From assembly GCA_963966185.1 (NCBI GenBank), contig CAWZYM010000012.1, forward strand, positions 527,501-591,500: a stretch of DNA of 64,000 bases, given 5' to 3'. This document shows, piece after piece, positions 16,210 to 64,000 of this stretch. How positions within the stretch are numbered: the first letter of the stretch is position 1; each line of letters opens with the position of its first letter. Under the pieces are notes generated by a model. That model did no database searches and was not told the origin of the DNA. It was given only the letters and a program-made list of their open reading frames with translations. The position numbers were made by a program, and so were the translations under genes. The stretch comes from Rhabditoides inermis. Taxonomy: Eukaryota; Nematoda; Chromadorea; Rhabditida; Rhabditidae.

Positions 16210-18806
16210 GGTTCCATCACGGAAAGAAAGTGATTTGGACATATTCGCACAATCAATGTGTCGATTCAACGTAGTCACCACAACAACAAGCCAGCCCAGC
16301 CCAGCCCAGCCCATCCCAGTCCCACCTTGTAGACCTTGTCGTGGAACGCCCTCTCCTCGCCGTCGACGTCCGGATGGGCGCGCACAAAGACCAGCTCCTC
16401 GGGCGCGTCCTCACACGTCGTGTCCATAGAGTCGTTCGAAGTCACCTGAGTAGAGCGTCAACCCTCCCTAGAGCAATAGATAGCAATCATTCATATTGTA
16501 CTACACACTACTTTACTCTAGCTCTCGACATATTATCTACCTCATCCTCACCTCTTTGACTTACTGCTTCCAGTCCACTTCCACCCTTCTCTATTTCCTC
16601 GCCCTCTCCCCTCTCCTCCTTCCTCTGACCTCACTACGTATGACAGACTGCTCCCAGTCCCCTTCCCCTCTCTCTCCCCTCCCCCCCCCCCCTCTCCCTC
16701 TCCTCTTTGACTTACTGCTTCCAGTCCACTTCCACCCTTCTCTATTTCCTCGCCCTCTCCCCTCTCCTCCTTCCTCTGACCTCACTACGTATGACAGACT
16801 GCTCCCAGTCCCCTTCCCCTCTCTCTCCCCTCCCCCCCCCCCTCTCCCTCTCCTCTTTGACTTACTGCTTCCAGTCCACTTCCACCCTTCTCTATTTCCT
16901 CGCCCTCTCCCCTCTCCTCCTTCCTCTGACCTCACTACGTATGACAGACTGCTCCCAGTCCCCTTCCCCTCTCTCTCCCCTCCCCCCCCCCCCTCTCCCT
17001 CTCCTCTTTGACTTACTGCTTCCAGTCCACTTCCACCCTTCTCTATTTCCTCGCCCTCTCCCCTCTCCTCCTTCCTCTGACCTCACTACGTATGACAGAC
17101 TGCTCCCAGTCCCCTTCCCCTCTCTCTCCCCTCCCCCCCCCCCCTCTCCCTCTCCTCTTTGACTTACTGCTTCCAGTCCACTTCCACCCTTCTCTATTTC
17201 CTCGCCCTCTCCCCTCTCCTCCTTCCTCTGACCTCACTACGTATGACAGACTGCTCCCAGTCCCCTTCCCCTCTCTCTCCCCTCCCCCCCCCCCCTCTCC
17301 CTCTCCTCTTTGACTTACTGCTTCCAGTCCACTTCCACCCTTCTCTATTTCCTCGCCCTCTCCCCTCTCCTCCTTCCTCTGACCTCACTACGTATGACAG
17401 ACTGCTCCCAGTCCCCTTCCCCTCTCTCTCCCCTCCCCCCCCCCCTCTCCCTCTCCTCTTTGACTTACTGCTTCCAGTCCACTTCCACCCTTCTCTATTT
17501 CCTCGCCCTCTCCCCTCTCCTCCTTCCTCTGACCTCACTACGTATGACAGACTGCTCCCAGTCCCCTTCCCCTCTCTCTCCCCTCCCCCCCCCCCCTCTC
17601 CCTCTCCTCTTTGACTTACTGCTTCCAGTCCACTTCCACCCTTCTCTATTTCCTCGCCCTCTCCCCTCTCCTCCTTCCTCTGACCTCACTACGTATGACA
17701 GACTGCTCCCAGTCCCCTTCCCCTCTCTCTCCCCTCCCCCCCCCCCTCTCCCTCTCCTCTTTGACTTACTGCTTCCAGTCCACTTCCACCCTTCTCTATT
17801 TCCTCGCCCTCTCCCCTCTCCTCCTTCCTCTGACCTCACTACGTATGACAGACTGCTCCCAGTCCCCTTCCCCTCTCTCTCCCCTCCCCCCCCCCCCTCT
17901 CCCTCTCCTCTTTGACTTACTGCTTCCAGTCCACTTCCACCCTTCTCTATTTCCTCGCCCTCTCCCCTCTCCTCCTTCCTCTGACCTCACTACGTATGAC
18001 AGACTGCTCCCAGTCCCCTTCCCCTCTCTCTCCCCTCCCCCCCCCCCTCTCCCTCTCCTCTTTGACTTACTGCTTCCAGTCCACTTCCACCCTTCTCTAT
18101 TTCCTCGCCCTCTCCCCTCTCCTCCTTCCTCTGACCTCACTACGTATGACAGACTGCTCCCAGTCCCCTTCCCCTCTCTCTCCCCTCCCCCCCCCCCCCC
18201 TCTCCCTCTCCTCTTTGACTTACTGCTTCCAGTCCACTTCCACCCTTCTCTATTTCCTCGCCCTCTCCCCTCTCCTCCTTCCTCTGACCTCACTACGTAT
18301 GACAGACTGCTCCCAGTCCCCTTCCCCTCTCTCTCCCCTCCCCCCCCCCCTCTCCCTCTCCTCTTTGACTTACTGCTTCCAGTCCACTTCCACCCTTCTC
18401 TATTCCCTCGCCCTCTCCCCTCTCCTCCTTCCTCTGACCTCACTACGTATGACAGACTGCTCCCAGTCCCCTTCCCCTCTCTCTCCCCTCCCCCCCCCCC
18501 CCCTCTCCCTCTCCTCTTTGACTTACTGCTTCCAGTCCACTTCCACCCTTCTCTATTTCCTCGCCCTCTCCCCTCTCCTCCTTCCTCTGACCTCACTACG
18601 TATGACAAACTGCTCCCAGTCCCCTTCTCCTCTCTCTCCCCTCCTCCCCTCACCTCCTTCACATACTGCACCGACTCCCTCCTCGCACCTCCACTGCCGC
18701 GGCTCTTCCGCGGCGCGCCCGGATCCACTCGGTGGGACGCCAACGACGATGACGAGAGATCGCCCCTCGCCATGTACAATACACCTGCGCGTGAAACCAG
18801 TGTCAT
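2476..18806 (-). CDS. mus-101: TopBP1 / MUS-101 multi-BRCT DNA replication and checkpoint protein
   Basis: TopBP1 is a nuclear scaffold that recruits replication-initiation factors and activates ATR at stalled forks. At least 25 exons read right to left. Exon 1 (18806-18655) starts at an ATG just behind a trans-splice-like acceptor (18813). BRCT0 is at 16447-16326 and 16143-16015. BRCT1 is at about 15560-15065 (THVVGE, DWVEAAW). BRCT2 is at about 13999-13460 (ISVSG, ELHGGRFTGE, CTHLVTD, RWVRKCIEAGY). BRCT3 is at 11900-11400 (WLCGV, THVLVLG, VDWFTTSV). BRCT4 is at about 10400-9640. BRCT5 is at about 9640-8830 (ITGFE, SHVVVGA, GEWVVRCA). BRCT7 is at about 5000-4560 (LGGEVFEG, THLIGG, LRNERVLGAI, YEWG). 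BRCT8 is at 3360-2828 (FSSWRAIIY, THAFVDANN, AYQLEYIANSLID). The last exon, 2512-2476, ends in a stop. I did not find a BRCT6; the low-complexity part at 8400-5000 lies where the ATR-activating region would be. Domain order and spacing match the family. Some low-complexity exon borders are unresolved. Confidence 0.88.
3800..3925 (+). repeat. Dispersed repeat family B with GATT tail
   Basis: This segment runs from CTACCATCCCCGTTGCTAAA to GGATAAATGATTGATTG. A reverse-complement copy lies at 12345-12480, and more diverged relatives with GATTCCGGATAAA next to (GATT)n lie at 10800-10975 and 14780-14955. A short tandem-repeat tail at one end is typical of SINEs or small Helitron-like elements. No tRNA-like head is evident, so the class is open. 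Confidence 0.55.
4438..4537. repeat. Trinucleotide repeat (CAA/CAG/CCG)n beside BRCT7 exon of TopBP1
   Basis: Plus-strand CAA, CAG and GCC triplet runs give open frames in several phases (poly-Q, poly-L, poly-C, poly-V). They directly follow, in minus-strand order, the BRCT7 exon that ends near YEWG. It is more likely an intron or a tolerated low-complexity insert than a separate gene. Confidence 0.6.
5627..5929. mobile_element. MITE-like palindromic element (family C)
   Basis: The element of ~303 bp has terminal inverted repeats: it starts AGTAGCGGTCAGTCT and ends AGACTAACCGCTACT. Internal segments (CTTCGAAACGCC, GCGTTTTGAAGGGGCTG) are also palindromic. It sits in a TopBP1 intron. A shorter member is at 9745-9863, and decayed pieces are near 4255-4350 and 15563-15692. 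No transposase is present, so it would be non-autonomous. Confidence 0.75.
6709..6812. repeat. Dispersed repeat family D, copy 1
   Basis: This segment of ~100 bp (ATAATTTATACCG, then ACACGTGAAATACAATAATG, then GATACAACAAAACGAATCT) recurs with few differences at 56285-56377 in the intron of the glycine cleavage H gene. Here it follows an exon-like GC-rich block of TopBP1. Confidence 0.7.
7092..7175 (-). tRNA. Class II tRNA-Leu(UAG)-like gene with 8-nt anticodon loop
   Basis: The minus strand folds as a tRNA: acceptor GTACCAG pairs with CTGGTGC, discriminator A, D arm GGCCGAGTGGTCTAAGGC, T arm GCGGG-TTCGAAT-CCCGC, and a 14-nt variable arm with a GGG/CCC stem. The anticodon stem AGGGA/TCCCT encloses AGTTAGGA, which is 8 nt rather than 7. 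If the first A is the extra base, the anticodon is UAG with U33 and G37 in place. The long variable arm plus A73 fits leucine identity. It lies in a TopBP1 intron, antiparallel... in the same strand sense as TopBP1. It may be functional, an unusual decoder, or a pseudogene. Confidence 0.8.
7290..7376 (+). tRNA. Class II tRNA-like gene, odd anticodon loop (UUC?)
   Basis: This lies 115 bp from, and divergent to, the neighbouring tRNA and shares its body: acceptor GTACCGG/CCGGTGC, A73, D arm GGCCGAGTGGTCAAGGC and T loop TTCGAAT (T stem with one G:U pair). The anticodon stem AGAGA/TCTCT again encloses 8 nt, ACTTTCGA. If the first A is extra, the anticodon is UUC (Glu codon GAA) on a leucine-type body. 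The variable arm is 18 nt and contains a run of 12 G. Nematodes are known to carry variable-arm tRNAs with non-Leu/Ser anticodons (nev-tRNAs), and this resembles one. The G run could also mean decay. Confidence 0.65.
9745..9863. mobile_element. Short MITE-like hairpin (family C)
   Basis: It begins AGTGGCGGTCAGTCTCTTCG and ends CGAAGAGACTGACCAC, a near-perfect inverted repeat of ~24 bp, with a central palindrome CTTCGAAACACG...CGTGTTTCGAAG. It is related to the 5627-5929 element and lies in a TopBP1 intron. Confidence 0.75.
10800..10975 (+). repeat. Dispersed repeat family B relative with GATT tail
   Basis: It shares GTGTTGTCATATTCAGATAT plus AACGATTCCGGATAAAC with 14884-14940, and both copies end in (GATT)n. 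The pair is much closer to each other than to the 3800 and 12345 copies. It lies in a TopBP1 intron. Confidence 0.6.
12008..12175 (+). repeat. Dispersed repeat family A, copy 2
   Basis: It runs from CCAGAGCGATAGTTTTCG through GCAGTTCGAAATACGG and CGAGAGCTGACTCTCCG to GCGAGCATAGAACTATA. It is close to the copies at 19655 and 25853. It is inserted in a TopBP1 intron just upstream (plus sense) of a Ser/Pro/Glu-rich exon. Confidence 0.7.
12345..12480 (-). repeat. Dispersed repeat family B, reverse copy
   Basis: The reverse complement of the 3800-3925 element: (CAAT)n, then TTTATCCAGAATCGCTATAT, then CACAGTTTAGCAA and GGATGGTAG. It is intronic in TopBP1. Confidence 0.6.
14780..14955 (+). repeat. 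Dispersed repeat family B relative with GATT tail
   Basis: See 10800-10975. It shares the 3' half ending CCGGATAAACGATTGATTG and a looser 5' half (GTAGGCACTACTGT against TTAGGCACTACTGT). It is intronic in TopBP1. Confidence 0.6.
16555..18655. repeat. 151-bp minisatellite, 14 copies, in TopBP1 intron 1
   Basis: Units beginning CTTACTGCTTCCAGTCCACT start at 16560, 16711, 16861, 17012, 17163, 17314, 17464, 17615, 17765, 17916, 18066, 18219, 18369 and 18522. The units are nearly identical and differ mainly in the length of one poly-C tract (period 150, 151 or 153). Rare changes are in the copies starting 18369 and 18522. On the gene strand each unit carries GCA|GTAAGT, a perfect 5' splice-site core. 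The long plus- and minus-strand ORFs here are repeat artefacts. Confidence 0.95.
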
Positions 18807-57751: not shown

Positions 57752-59479
57752 ATGAAGGAGCAAAGGTGGCAGAGGCACCGCCGTCTGTGGGCGGCCGTGG
57801 AGGGTGGGGCGAAGGCTGCGTCGCTGCCGAGGCAGGCGGCAGGCGACATGGCGCCCCGCCCGCCCTCCACCATCCACCGCCTCACCCCGCCGCCACCCAC
57901 GCTCCCGAGCCCACCCGTGCCCTCGTGCACATCCCCCGCCAAAGCCGTGAGTCCTTCATCCATTGTTATGTGTTTTTTTGTTTCTTGCTTCTTGCCTCGC
58001 TAGCTTCAACTCTCCAACCGTAATTTTGTCAATGTCTAATTGTGCTTATTGCTTTTGTGTTGCAGGCCGTGTCGGCTGCGGCGTTCACGGACGCCGATTT
58101 CCCGCCGCTGGGATCGGCTCCGTCCACCGCTCCCACCGCCTGGCCAGCGGTGATCGAGGTAAACGACCTTGCTGATTCTTTCTACACTTTCTTTTGTGTT
58201 TCTTATCGTTATTGTCAATGATCAATGACTCGTCTCAGAGCACCAACCTGGCCCCCGTCATGACCACCAACAACCGTTTGGACGGCATGGTGAGCGAGTG
58301 AAGACGTATTGTGCTTATCAACTGTTTCAGGCTCTGTTTGTCGCCACGCCCGTTCCTGACCCGCGTCGCCCCGGCCAGAGTGTGAGTACGATTGTTCTTG
58401 TCACTCTTGCCGTTTTCGTGTGTCGACTATCGATCGCTTTCAGATGATCATCTACAAGCCGAGACAGAGATTGGCGCAGTTCTCTGTGGAGAAGGAGAAG
58501 AAGCGCGAGCTGCCCAAGACCCCCATCCACGAGCAGACGGTATGTTGCCAATTCACTTTCTCGATTTCATACCAGAACGCTGATGCGTACTTGCAATCCA
58601 CTGTATACATTTGAAGACTGGCGCTCGGCCTCGCTTGGACGACGACGCCGCCGCCAAGCCGCCGTCGCTCTGCCGCACGGTGCGGGTGTACGAGGAGCAC
58701 CGCTTCGTCCGCGACAAGATGATCTCGTGTTGGCTGAAAGAACGATGGCCGGCGTGGAAGAAGGGCGAGGAGTGCAAGGCCGTTTCTGGCGCTGGAGAAG
58801 TGAGTTGGATGGGGGAGTGGGAGTAAGGGGGAAATGGCGAGCCAGCCTGTTCTCAGCTGACCGCGGAACAGCCGTCGCCTCGCGGAGATGCGCCAAAGCG
58901 AATAGTCATTCGCAAATACAGGAAAGTGGTCGCAAAGACAAGGAGGAGGGGAGCATACACCGCGACGGTGGGTTCGCGGGACTTGAATTATTGATTGTAT
59001 CGATTAGTTGTTTAACTGTTGTTCAGTCGTGCGCTGTCGTCTCCAACAGGTTCCATCGGCTGCTGACGGCCATGCTGTACGAGGAGGTGTGTTTGTAGTA
59101 GACGTAGCAATTTCGACTGATACTGGTATTTTCTATCTCTTAGACCGAGGAAATTGTGCCTCACGTGTCTCGTAAATGGGAGAAGGTGAAAAGGAAGGTG
59201 AGATGGGAATTGATTCTGAATGATGTGAATGTAGGCTCATTCAGTAGTTTGCAGGACGTCAAGAAGACGCGTGGGAAGCGCACGCGTCGCCGCGCTCCGA
59301 AGGTAGTCCCTCTCGCACCCTTCCTCTCACCCACTCGAACACTCCAGGCGGCAGTGGAGATCCGCCACGGCATGGAGTTCCTGCAATACTCCATCGAGAG
59401 TACTCCGATGGTGGACTGCAGAGCCAATCCCAGCAGCCACGCCCCGTCCAAACAGCTGACAGGTGGGTATAGAAGTAGA

Positions 59480-59530
<51 letters not shown>

Positions 59531-62500
59531 GTTCCCGTGTTTCAGATGAGTACGCGTCTCCGAGGAACGTGCTTCAGCTGCACGCCATGCTCAATTCGTT
59601 CGGAATGGAGACGGTGACGTCACTCTGCCCAGCACTTCTCGTCGACCAACACAGAATCGACCAGCTCCCAGACGAACAGGTAGATCAGAGGGGGTAGATC
59701 AGTGGGTGTAGATCAATGGAGGTAGATCAGTGAGAGTAGATCAGTTATATTTTGGCTGCGACCGATTGCAATTGCCATCATAATGTGGGTGATGAAATTA
59801 TTCGGAGGGGGACTGGTTGTATAGATAGTATGGATTGATTATCGATTGATTTGCAGATTCCGTTAGTCTGCCAAGTGGCTTGTCAGGAGTGTGGCGAGTC
59901 ACTGCCCTCCCTGCTCTCACTCAAGAATCACTCGACGGAGAATCATCAGAAAGAGGTGAGCGTCTCTCTCTCGCAGTGGGCGGAGCGTCTGAAGACCACC
60001 CTCGACGATCTTACTTGTGCCTCTCGCGCAGTGCGTCGATCGGCCAGCCGGGAAGCCAGCGAGCCACCGGAGAAGAACGCAAATGTAGGAAATAGAGAGG
60101 GAAAGAGAGAGAGAGAGAGAGAGAGGAGAGACCATCCTCATCTCTCTCCAGGACGAGCCTGTGGACCCGAACCTCGCGCAGCTGGCTCTTCTCAACATGA
60201 TGGGTGGCTCGATGGGCGGGTCGGGGATGCCTGCTATGCCGTTCGGTCTGCCCGGTTTCCCTCCCGGAATGGAGCAGTTCTTCAACCCGGCTGCCGCCGC
60301 CGCCGCCGCCGCTATGATGCAGCAGTCGCTCGCCGCCAATTCGCCGGCCAAGCGAGCGCGCACCCGAATCACCGACGACCAACTCAAGGTGCTCCGGCAG
60401 TACTTCGACATCAACAACAGTCCCACGGAGCAGCAGACTGAGGTGTGTGCGTCTGAGTCTTTCTCTCTCTCATTCTCGCTCTCTCTATCTCGTAGACTAA
60501 GTCTGAGTATCACATTGATCGGTATGGAGAAGGAACAGACGGTGGTTTCTTGTTTCATCGACATCGTTCATTACGATATCTTTCTGCTATTTATCCCAAC
60601 TTTCTGTTGTAGCTCACCACGCACACGCGCGTCTTCAAGGATGTCGTCAAGGTTGACGCAGCAGCCTTCGAGAAGGTATTGCTGTCTGCTCTCACCAGCA
60701 ACAGCAAGGCGTCTCTGCTCCAGGAGGAGCTGACCAAGTGGAGCTGGGTGCCGCTGCCCGACAGCTACCAGCAGCTCGTCAACAAGTTCCAGCACCTCGA
60801 CAGGGTTGGTACCGAATGAGAGGAGTATTGATTGATTTATCGGTTTATTGATTACTTTAGGTGGTGTCGATCTTCAACGCGCAGGGCAAGCGCACCACGT
60901 GGGACGAGGTGCAGCAGAACGTGCAGCGCAACCTCAAGCAGTGCGTTGTTTACCTTGTTTTGTTTTGTTTGTTTACTTGTTCCTTCCTTTTTGTTTACAG
61001 GAACCTCTCGATCGAACACCTCTCGCAGATGCTCAACGAGTACGAGGAGTCGTACAATCACAAGGTGAATTCATTTTTGAATGAATCGATAAATGTGGGT
61101 TGTGTTTTGTAGGTGGAGGAGATGTGGTCGGCGTTTGGCGGCTTCCGCGCCGGCAAGTACGAGTACGTCATTGAGGCCAACATGAACGACGGTACGCCTT
61201 CTTTCTGTCTATCTCTGGACACTCTCGCTCTCGTTCCCCCCCCTCTCCCGTTCTCCCCAATATGTTATGTTCCCAACTCTTTCAGATCTCGACGGATCAC
61301 TCACGGAGGTGGCACTGGCGACTGTTCTCTCTTCGGTTAAAGTACGCATTTGCAATCCAATTATAACTAAACGGATTTTGGTATTGTAAACTTCTAACCT
61401 GGCCTCGCTCACCTCTCATTGTGTCTGTAGTCTAATCAAATCGCAGATCATGTTTTTCGCTGATCACGACAATCTATGATTCGAGATAAACATTCTGATT
61501 CTGATGACTACACTCGATTTTAGAACGTGTTGCGGCCGATTCCGCGGAATGTGGTGGCGGAGCAGCAGCAGCAGCAGCCGGACTCGTTGTGCGGCGCGGG
61601 ACGAGCGCGGCTCGAGGGCTGGAGCATGGCGTGCAGGTGAGTGGGTTCATAACTGTCGGGGGTAGCCGGGTGTCTTCTCCACACTACGCAAACGGTCTAG
61701 CCTCATCTTTATGCCTGTCAATTGCCTGCGTAGTGGGTTGAAATTAAAAAAAATCTCTTTTTCAGGTCAACCCTTGTGCGGCACCGGCTCGCGCAGCGAG
61801 TGCTTGAGCAGCACCGTCAGTTTATGGAGCAGATCGGAAGCAGATGCTCCCTCTCTCCTTCTCTCCCTCTCTCTCTCTCACTCTCTCCTTCCAGCGCCTC
61901 TTTCCGCCGAGGAGGAGTCCTCCATGAAGTGTCTCCATCCCTCGTTCCGCGTTGACACATGCGAGGCCGTTTCCATGAAGCGCCTGGACCTACCCAATAC
62001 GGTAAGCAAATTGATTGATCGATTGATTGATTAATTGACAGACCGATTGATTGACCGATTGTTTTATTAATTAGGCTGATTGACTGATTGACTGATTGAC
62101 TGATTGACTGATTGGCTGATTGACTGATTGACTGATTAGCTGATTGGCTGATTGGCTGATTGACTGATTGACTGTTTTAGAGGGTCACCGTGGCGGCGAT
62201 GTGCGTCTACATGAAGAGCATGGAGGATGTGCACATTCCACCGCAGGGAGTGCAGGTGAGTGGGACAGAGAATCCTGAATTCATGTACAATATCTCACCT
62301 TCGCCTTGTTCATCTTTTAATCTCGCGGCAGATAAACTTTTTTTTCATGCCTCTGCAAGTGGTAGAATATGGTCGTGCCAGACAGACAATGACGTCACTT
62401 TTTTCCTTTTAGACTCTGGAGCATCTCGAGTCTTTGAAAGAGCAGTCGGAGGGCGCAGTCCCGCTGTCGCCGCAGAAGTTTGCCGAGAAACAAGCGGAAG

Positions 62501-64000
62501 AGAAAAAAAATGGCGACATGAGTCTGCTGGACAAGGTGAGGCTTACCTTTGGCTTACGTTTGACTTGACAATGTGTTGCTGAATCAGTTTATCGATTGAA
62601 CTTTGGGTTAAGATTGATTATGCCTTCCCCGTTCAGATCCGCGCCAAGGTAGCGGCCAAGAGGGAGGCGGAGTCGAAACGCGACCCGGTGAAGGAGACAA
62701 GAAAGGCGCGGCTGAACAAGCTGATGGGTGGCTCTCAGGGCGCTTCTGGCATGTGTTCTATGCCGTTCGGTCTGCCCGGCTTCCCGCCCGGAATAAAGCA
62801 GTTCTTCAACCCGGCTGTCGCCGCCGCCGCTATGATGCAGCAGTCTCTCGCTGCGAGTTCGCCGGCCAAGCGAGCGCGCACCCGAATCACCGACGACCAA
62901 CTCAAGGTGCTCAGACAGTACTTCGACATCAACAACAGTCCCACGGAGCAGCAGACTGAGGTATGGCTATATGAGGGCGGGGTAGACTAGAGGAGCGTCA
63001 GCTGGCACCGTATTTTGTGGTGAAAGAGATCGAAAACCATTGTCTTACTGAATTTTTTTTCTCTCATCTTCATTTTTCAGGAAATATCTATCAAGACACA
63101 ACTTCCGGAGAAGGTAATCAAGCACTGGTTCCGCAACATTCTTTTCAAGGTGGGAGTGGGGGCGGGGCTGGAGGGGGCGGGGCGACGGAACCCCCAGCGT
63201 TCCCATGACCGCGTGACTCACGACGCGCCTATGATTGCTAATGCCTCATTGGTATTATGCGCTCAACCAAAATATCTCTCGCCTATGGGAACGGTGGAAC
63301 CGAAATGGCCAATCGCGTGAGGCGAGGGATCAATCGATAATCGATCGATATTTGCAGGAGCGCCAGCGCGACAAGGACTCATCCTACAACTTCTCGATTC
63401 CTCCCTCGATGAAGATCGACCTGGACGCGTATGAGAAGACGGGAGAAGCCAGAGTCGTCGCCCTATCTCAAGAGGACCACGACCAGTGCTCGTCGCCCAC
63501 CACTCCCGCCGCTCGCGCGTCCGCCGGCGGCAGCAGCCCCGCCCCGCCCCCTCAGGCCCCGCCCACTACGGTGGCCGCGACGCCCGCCGTGCCGCCGCCG
63601 TTGACGCTGCAGAGTATGATAGCGCAGCAGGGGCATCCGTTCGCCGCGTTCCTGCAGGACCCAGAGAAGGCGTTCGCGATGCTGCCAGGTGGGTAGAGAG
63701 GAGAGGGAGAGAGAGGGAGAGAGAGTGAGAGAGAGAGAGAGACCAATCCTTTGCAGGTGCGATGCCTTCGATGCCCCCTATGCCGCAGCAGCAGCAACAG
63801 CAGCAGGCCTCTTCTGGCCGCCGCGCGAATCGCACTCGCTTCACCGACTTCCAGCTGCGCACGCTGCAGCAGTTCTTCGAGAAGCAGGCCTATCCCAAGG
63901 ACGACGACTTGGAGGTGCTTTCGAAGAAGCTCCAACTCTCTCCCAGGGTCATCGTCGTGTGGTTCCAGAACGCGAGGCAGAAGGTGAGGGAGAGAGATAG
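57752..64000 (+). CDS. zfh-2: C2H2/homeodomain transcription factor, ZFHX / zfh-2 family (partial, chimeric with CDT1)
   Basis: The gene runs off the right edge. Supported exons before the CDT1 segment begin at 57752 and are mostly phase 0: [10 protein letters not shown] (58066-58158), [13 protein letters not shown] (58442-58539), [16 protein letters not shown] (58616-58800), basic [14 protein letters not shown] (59255-59302), [11 protein letters not shown] (59348-59460), and 59857-59954 with a canonical finger (CQEC, 12 residues, H, 4, H). The exon 60152-60442 ends halfway through a homeodomain ([19 protein letters not shown]). The same half-homeodomain returns at 62732-62960 and continues into 63081-63150 ([15 protein letters not shown]) and 63358-63692 ([12 protein letters not shown]). 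A second homeodomain follows at 63757-63983 ([30 protein letters not shown]). Both homeodomains are characteristic of ZFHX proteins. Whether 57752-59700 belongs to the same protein is likely from phase but not proven. Confidence 0.75.
59680..59744. repeat. 14-bp tandem repeat starting exactly at a 5' splice site
   Basis: GTAGATCAGAGGGG, GTAGATCAGTGGGT, GTAGATCAATGGAG, GTAGATCAGTGAGA and a partial fifth copy follow the exon end GACGAACAG. Each unit begins with the donor-like GTAGAT. Confidence 0.9.
60152..60442 (+). repeat. Half-homeodomain exon, copy 1
   Basis: This 97-codon, phase-0 exon carries [19 protein letters not shown], a poly-Ala run and the first ~30 homeodomain residues, ending TEQQTE. 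It is duplicated at 62732-62960 with amino-acid differences (GMEQ/GIKQ, AANS/AASS), so the copies have diverged. Confidence 0.9.
60613..62731 (+). pseudogene. cdt-1: CDT1 segment (replication licensing factor) inside the zfh-2-like gene
   Basis: CDT1 loads MCM helicase and is held by geminin. About 10 phase-compatible exons from 60613: [105 protein letters not shown] (the 'HPRF' turn), RLDLPNT and [20 protein letters not shown]. These follow the order of the CDT1 central winged helix and linker. The N-terminus (degradation boxes) was not found. The C-terminal MCM-binding winged helix is missing: the frame passes from ...KARLNKL directly into MGGSQG of the zfh-2 exon copy within one exon (62637-62960). 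I see no stop or frameshift, so it may be expressed; 'pseudogene' here means truncated and fused. Confidence 0.75.
62010..62176. repeat. (GATTGACT)n tandem repeat in a CDT1-segment intron
   Basis: TGATTGAC, TGATTGGC and related 8-mers fill the intron from shortly after the donor GTAAGC (62002) to the acceptor TTTTAG (62179). Confidence 0.95.
62732..62960 (+). repeat. Half-homeodomain exon, copy 2 (fused to CDT1 frame)
   Basis: It starts at the shared TGATGGGTGGCTC, where CDT1 codons ...AACAAGC end, and runs [19 protein letters not shown] to TEQQTE. The exon end is phase 0, as in copy 1, and the following exon completes the homeodomain. Confidence 0.9.

Follow-up and report, generated by a model that had tools for sequence, protein, structure and literature searches.

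The right end of the stretch of Rhabditoides inermis DNA analysed here (the window; 64,000 nucleotides, C12:527501–591500, in a 172.6-Mb genome of 599 contigs) is occupied by locus A. This locus is an incomplete duplicate of the nematode zfh-2 gene, which is of the ZFHX type, and contains part of a gene for the licensing factor CDT1. All features of the locus lie on the + strand. An exon encoding half a homeodomain is present twice, at 60152–60442 (copy 1) and at 62722–62960 (copy 2), the latter inside a fused exon (62637–62960). The two copies are recognized as repeat pairs, 60296–60447/62814–62965 at 94% identity (152 nucleotides) and 60193–60306/62717–62830 at 85% (114 nucleotides), and copy 1 was also identified by comparison with a second zfh-2 locus, locus B, described below. 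Between them lies a 2.2-kb DNA-level copy of cdt-1, introns included. Ten of its exons are separate CDT1 exons, an eleventh survives as a short remnant, and the fused exon begins with CDT1 sequence as well; all of these are open. The remnant (60524–60541), a possible first exon of a fusion frame, begins with an ATG (MEKEQT), and its AAGGAACAGACGGTGG is identical in a separate cdt-1 gene on contig C10. The ten exons are located at 60613–60804, 60861–60940, 61001–61064, 61113–61191, 61286–61341, 61524–61636, 61766–61839, 61895–62001, 62181–62255 and 62413–62535, the last encoding the linker and the start of the CDT1_C domain. The strongylid CDT1 proteins P0005 and P0008 gave collinear tblastn exon matches over 60703–62732 (E 0.011 or better), which cover the exons beginning at 60613, 60861, 61113, 61524, 61895 and 62413. 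The fused exon carries the start of CDT1_C (to ∼62724) in frame into copy 2, with the junction at a TGA overlap, and by its frame the exon at 63081–63149 completes homeodomain 1.

A frame of 1,074 uninterrupted codons, predicted to comprise 20 exons, starts at the ATG at 60524 and spans CDT1 and three homeodomains. The frame continues past 63149 through an exon that follows homeodomain 1 (63358–63688), an exon with homeodomain 2 (63757–63983, assigned by Pfam and frame) and homeodomain 3, and terminates at a stop codon close to 65786 in window coordinates, beyond the window end. From the exon at 60524 to that at 63081, successive exons are entered in phases 0,0,0,2,0,1,0,2,1,0,0,0,0, and the 19 introns have GT-AG ends except for one GC donor after 61839 (GGAA/GCAGAT). 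In the joined frame Pfam identifies CDT1 (PF08839) with 100.3 bits (E 1.9e-28) over positions 1–169 of 170, which is the central geminin-binding winged-helix domain, together with three homeodomain stretches in the same order as in nematode ZFH-2 proteins. The CDT1_C domain (PF16679) scored 14.4 bits against a cut-off of 25 on an earlier splice draft, over positions 1–34 of 96, and is not listed by Pfam at E 0.1 in the final joined frame. The MCM-binding domain is represented in the window copy of CDT1 by its first third alone, and the complete C-terminal winged helix is missing. The joined CDT1 part is 35% identical to one strongylid CDT1 over 320 residues, and the solved CDT1 chains 8rwv, 2wvr, 2zxx and 8s0e match the predicted sequence with E values of 1e-11 to 4e-11. 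Chance is excluded as the source of the CDT1 and half-homeodomain signals, and the best named matches of the predicted frame in protein searches are from nematodes.

A first-pass annotation of this stretch had described a half-homeodomain exon in two copies with roughly ten open CDT1 exons between them, a CDT1 frame passing in frame into copy 2 with the homeodomain completed at 63081, and a geminin-binding region present with the MCM-binding domain missing, and the exons, repeat pairs and Pfam matches above agree with that description. Its statement that all junctions it had checked are in phase 0 was wrong, since the entry phases include 1 and 2. The end of copy 1 is in phase 0 and compatible with splicing to either 60613 or 63081; hence the three transcript forms that the annotation had proposed (copy 1 spliced straight to 63081, read-through from copy 1 into CDT1, and a start inside the insert) are possible on paper.

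Upstream of copy 1, locus A has two further zfh-2 exons, both of which match locus B and nematode ZFH-2 proteins: the first of the locus (59547–59679, DEYASPRN...) and an open exon with a degenerate C2H2 finger that ends in ...EPPEKNAN (59858–60083). Locus B (C12:497630–503448, − strand) is inverted and lies ∼87 kb from locus A on the same contig. It matches locus A piecewise at 83–96%, and contains one half-homeodomain exon and no CDT1. The ZFH-2 protein of Necator (1,638 residues) matches locus B in order over residues 103–1614, from 512781 down to 497024, but matches locus A over residues 700–1431 only; locus B is therefore near full length and locus A a fragment. The N-terminal C2H2 zinc-finger half is absent from A, as Necator residues 103–650 match only B (512781–504734) in the 129 kb searched, and so is the C-terminal finger region after homeodomain 3, where residues 1478–1614 match only B (497602–497024), in agreement with P0004. 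Homology between the two loci stops at C12:593163.

Over the final 34 codons, six nucleotides are common to copies 1 and 2 but differ in B, among them those in the codons for TE versus IK. Two further sites differ in copy 2 only, and copy 1 has no such private difference. The two copies are therefore sisters that arose after loci A and B had split, or were homogenized there.

The first-pass annotation had called for a search for a second cdt-1, and a separate gene with both ends was found on contig C10. Its ATG is at 424520 (with MDPVKDDPEGQTHVNDFFK), its 5′ exons carry QTHVNDFF, which is close to the published C. elegans PIP box QTAVTDFF (PMC9641140), and its exon at 430533 runs into the C-terminal domain; the 5 kb that separates these two ends is a run of N. 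The C10 gene has both the PIP degron and the C-terminal domain, whereas the window copy has neither: its start falls within a cdt-1 exon at ∼60530, downstream of QTHVNDFF, and the sequence that follows the ...FEK codons in C10 is missing from it. Two PIP-like patterns found no PIP degron in the window frame. At its 5′ end the window copy retains recognizable cdt-1 intron sequence that can be aligned to the C10 gene, which shows that it was copied as DNA; a retrocopy origin was rejected since introns are present and one of them aligns to the C10 gene. At the 3′ join the cdt-1 and zfh-2 sequences overlap by three bases, TGA. No source was found for the filler at 60443–60523. Its top score against a zfh intron was reached by 3 of 500 shuffles, of which one went higher (maximum 28 versus 24), and no weight is placed on it. 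With both locus B and the C10 gene in the same genome, locus A is a partial duplicate and not the only zfh-2 or cdt-1.

Searches of the whole genome with the Pfam models for CDT1, CDT1_C and Geminin gave no matches, and were equally silent in 14 control genomes and hence uninformative. Contigs C317 and C182 contain a shorter CDT1 piece, from which the exon at 61001–61064 is missing. On both contigs this piece sits in a repeat (C317:9369–18339; C182:2731–9343) bounded by inverted repeats of ∼695 nucleotides. The repeat may be a mobile element that has captured part of a gene. The repeat was dropped as a carrier of the window CDT1 because, CDT1 aside, it has no match to locus A.

Selection was assessed from silent (dS) and replacement (dN) divergence and their ratio, omega. 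Over the 571 codons that follow copy 2, locus A differs from B with dS 0.365, dN 0.021 and omega 0.058 (Fisher p 9e-54), and the homeodomain part of locus A is under strong purifying selection. Copy 1 is similarly close to B (dS 0.24, dN 0.009; 2 replacements in 97 codons). For CDT1, the two exons at the ends of the insert could be compared with the C10 gene, giving dS 0.71, dN 0.09 and omega 0.126 (Fisher p 4e-6). The silent distance between the CDT1 copy and C10 is, if anything, greater than that between A and B (p 0.06), so the CDT1 copy may have split from the C10 gene before the zfh-2 duplication. Copies 1 and 2 differ over their whole comparable length (79 codons) by dS 0.23 and dN 0.057, and the changes are unevenly placed: the half-homeodomain (34 codons) has no replacements and 2 silent changes, and the linker (45 codons) has 10 replacements and 9 silent changes, a difference with p 0.005 for replacements and p 0.10 for silent changes. 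In a neutral simulation started from the present sequence (2000 runs per rate), the CDT1 frame was stop-free in 11%, 1.6%, 0.55%, 0.05% and 0% of runs at 0.05, 0.1, 0.115, 0.18 and 0.35 changes per site, respectively, where 0.115 is the estimated age, and at none of the five rates did any run also avoid frameshift and splice loss. To judge from the retained frame and the omega of 0.13 (50 codons), the CDT1 part seems to have been maintained as well, although this is less secure than for the homeodomains.

We propose that locus A is a partial zfh-2 duplicate with a DNA-level cdt-1 insert that yields two products, a homeodomain protein and a CDT1–homeodomain fusion, and we give this a probability of just under one half (0.48). 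The duplicate lacks the N-terminal zinc-finger half, where the U exons described below lie, and the C-terminal fingers, and has kept the three homeodomains. The sequence indicates that, at about the time of the zfh-2 duplication or later, a piece of cdt-1 with its introns was copied as DNA into the half-homeodomain exon, leaving that exon duplicated on both sides of the insert and a 3′ join that shares three bases. The first product would be a homeodomain protein made by splicing copy 1 to 63081. Such a product is plausible by analogy with C. elegans, where the essential ZFH-2 function is assigned to shorter isoforms with all homeoboxes (PMC13078641). The second would be a fusion that starts internally at the ATG at 60524. 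The open CDT1–homeodomain frame is present and would allow a single transcript to join both parts; for its expression as a fusion protein we see about even odds, the main rival being a large skipped intron.

The predicted fusion would keep the geminin-binding domain; the PIP degron would be missing, as would the greater part of the MCM-binding winged helix. The C-terminal part of CDT1 (residues 407–546 in human) binds MCM, and the smallest fragment with licensing activity is equivalent to human residues 243–546 (PMC5294997), so the fusion should not be able to license. It could nevertheless bind geminin in S phase, and its homeodomains would hold it at ZFH-2 target sites. A fuller version of this scheme is more speculative and unlikely. 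In it the fusion, having no PIP degron, would evade S-phase destruction; it would bind geminin but be unable to load MCM, and its three homeodomains would take it to ZFH-2 sites, where it would either free CDT-1 from geminin or trap geminin locally.

Several observations weigh against the two-product proposal. The donor after 61839 is GC, although that stretch is also open to read-through, and the first donor of the predicted fusion frame is weak (GTGGTT). The linker of copy 2 evolves loosely, and gene conversion could be the cause of the identical half-homeodomains, as silent differences are also fewer there (p 0.10). The CDT1 comparison with C10 covers 50 codons in the two end exons only, and part of the constraint that it records, like that between A and B, belongs to the other copy. 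Over 73 codons of other exons, the window copy and C317 differ with dS 0.18, dN 0.10 and omega near 0.6, looser than against C10. The simulation assumed an indel rate of one tenth of substitutions, and its age rests on 11 silent changes and assumes that the exon duplication and the insertion were one event; at 0.05 changes per site, 11% of runs remain stop-free.

The strongest competitor, a serious if somewhat less probable one, is that the CDT1 piece and copy 2 are an inert relic and that locus A makes only the homeodomain protein, with 60442 spliced to 63081 and the intervening 2.6 kb removed as one intron. The strict conservation of copy 1 (2 replacements in 97 codons against B) would then contrast with the 10 replacements in 45 codons that separate the copy 2 linker from copy 1. 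The GC donor within the CDT1 part fits the same picture, as does the incomplete CDT1 piece of the C317/C182 repeat, by which such pieces arise in this genome without evident use. A relic is harder to reconcile with the fact that every CDT1 exon is still open and the frame runs on into the homeodomain, with the simulation, in which neutral retention is unlikely at the estimated age, and with the omega at the two exons comparable with C10.

Read-through, in which copy 1 is spliced to 60613 and CDT1 is embedded between a broken half-homeodomain and a complete homeodomain, is allowed by the phases, as copy 1 ends and exon 60613 begins in phase 0 with an open frame onward; it would leave an unfinished half-homeodomain in the protein, no sequence feature favours it over an internal start, and we consider it unlikely. 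Slightly less likely again is a pair of genes, with the upstream U and zfh exons dead or truncated and the downstream exons used only by a CDT1–homeodomain gene. The ATG and a pyrimidine-rich AG just upstream of it (CTATCTCGTAG) could serve an internal trans-spliced start, but copy 1 and the two preceding zfh exons are open and close to B. Least likely of all is an assembly artefact that joined unrelated pieces: the genome holds a single full-length match and no second contig confirms the join, but the CDT1 copy and the C10 gene differ by 14–22% where alignable and the exon copies by 6–15%, so that neither is an overlap, and at the 3′ join the frame is preserved across a three-base overlap. 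The first-pass annotation had likewise argued against a simple assembly overlap, which is rejected here because both exon copies have diverged.

An intronic element after homeodomain 1, at 63190–63275 (C12:500264–500349 in B), is 98% identical between loci A and B over 86 nucleotides, despite the A–B silent-site difference of 0.365; a genome search listed it at loci A and B only, and it is possibly a regulatory element. An intron between the FHKR and CPFC codons of B (C12:498574–498630) is cleanly absent in A (C12:591774–592270, just outside the window), so that the paralogues differ by the precise loss or gain of an intron. Just upstream of the half-homeodomain exon of locus B, at C12:501–502 kb, a (CAGA)n tract has expanded to 1 kb or more. 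The A–B introns are mostly simple repeats and were dropped as a neutral clock.

Upstream of the zfh part of locus A lie exons here termed U (58192–59440), identified by blastn and a genome search. They are joined to zfh-2 exons in locus A, and have no Pfam match above cut-off and no match among the 175 proteins compared. Related copies occur at C12:600–606 kb, at C117:87.4–89.8 kb beside zfh pieces, and at C10:465.9–467.5 kb, ∼35 kb from cdt-1. Another U–zfh mosaic lies at C117:84.3–89.8 kb, where zfh-2 pieces (85.8–87.4 kb) are enclosed by a U-like stretch; on C10 (464.6–467.5 kb) only ∼0.3 kb separates the two flanks of that stretch. A 3-kb tandem duplication at C12:599894–605642 (98.6% identical) contains U sequence and a truncated zfh exon and is inverted relative to locus A. 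The region has been rearranged repeatedly. Elsewhere in the window, a tandem array at 16540–18656 has a period of ∼151 nucleotides with copies 95–99% identical.

If the proposal is correct, the geminin-binding part of CDT1 is joined to a ZFHX homeodomain array, and a coupling of licensing to cell identity becomes directly testable. Were the fusion to bind geminin at ZFH-2 sites, licensing would be controlled by the binding pattern of a developmental transcription factor. Even if only the homeodomain form is made, locus A is a clear duplicated ZFHX gene, rebuilt by repeated DNA-level rearrangement. Like ZFH-2 and ZFHX2, 3 and 4, it encodes three homeodomains in order, the first split by an intron, with zinc fingers between, and its predicted frame is 49–57% identical to nematode ZFH-2 proteins over approximately two thirds of the query (the top dozen of the best 120 of 267 matches). 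One homologue, P0060, aligns over 76% of the query and as far as its CDT1 part, but CDT1 is not among the Pfam domains listed for P0060 and the alignment was taken to be overextended. C. elegans has one ZFHX gene (PMC13078641), whereas in R. inermis a second copy is present that is truncated, has different N-terminal exons, and carries both a duplicated half-homeodomain exon and a CDT1 insert.

The window copy resembles known CDT1 proteins in its Pfam domain (positions 1–169 of 170) and in its matches to solved CDT1 chains. Unlike them, it has no PIP-like motif or N-terminal part in the window frame, its MCM-binding domain is cut after ∼34 residues, and homeodomains replace its C-terminus. Geminin restrains CDT1 and binds some homeodomain proteins, including SIX3 and SIX6, according to PMC6895700, and these offer a known link between homeodomain proteins and the geminin–CDT1 pair. 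There the contact is between proteins and through the C-terminal regions of SIX, whereas here CDT1 itself would be covalently joined. No homologue with both CDT1 and homeodomain Pfam entries was present among the 57 hits (in a search that covered proteins up to ∼850 residues), the 3 hits and the best 120 of 267 hits of three protein searches, and no report of a CDT1–homeodomain fusion was found in open-licence papers. The formation of chimeric genes by DNA-level partial duplication is a known mechanism. Locus A is like such chimeras in that it carries introns along, has a short overlap at the join and lies in a region of repeated rearrangement. It is unlike them in what has been joined: the pairing of a licensing factor with a ZFHX homeodomain gene is absent from the homologues listed and, as far as these searches show, is new.

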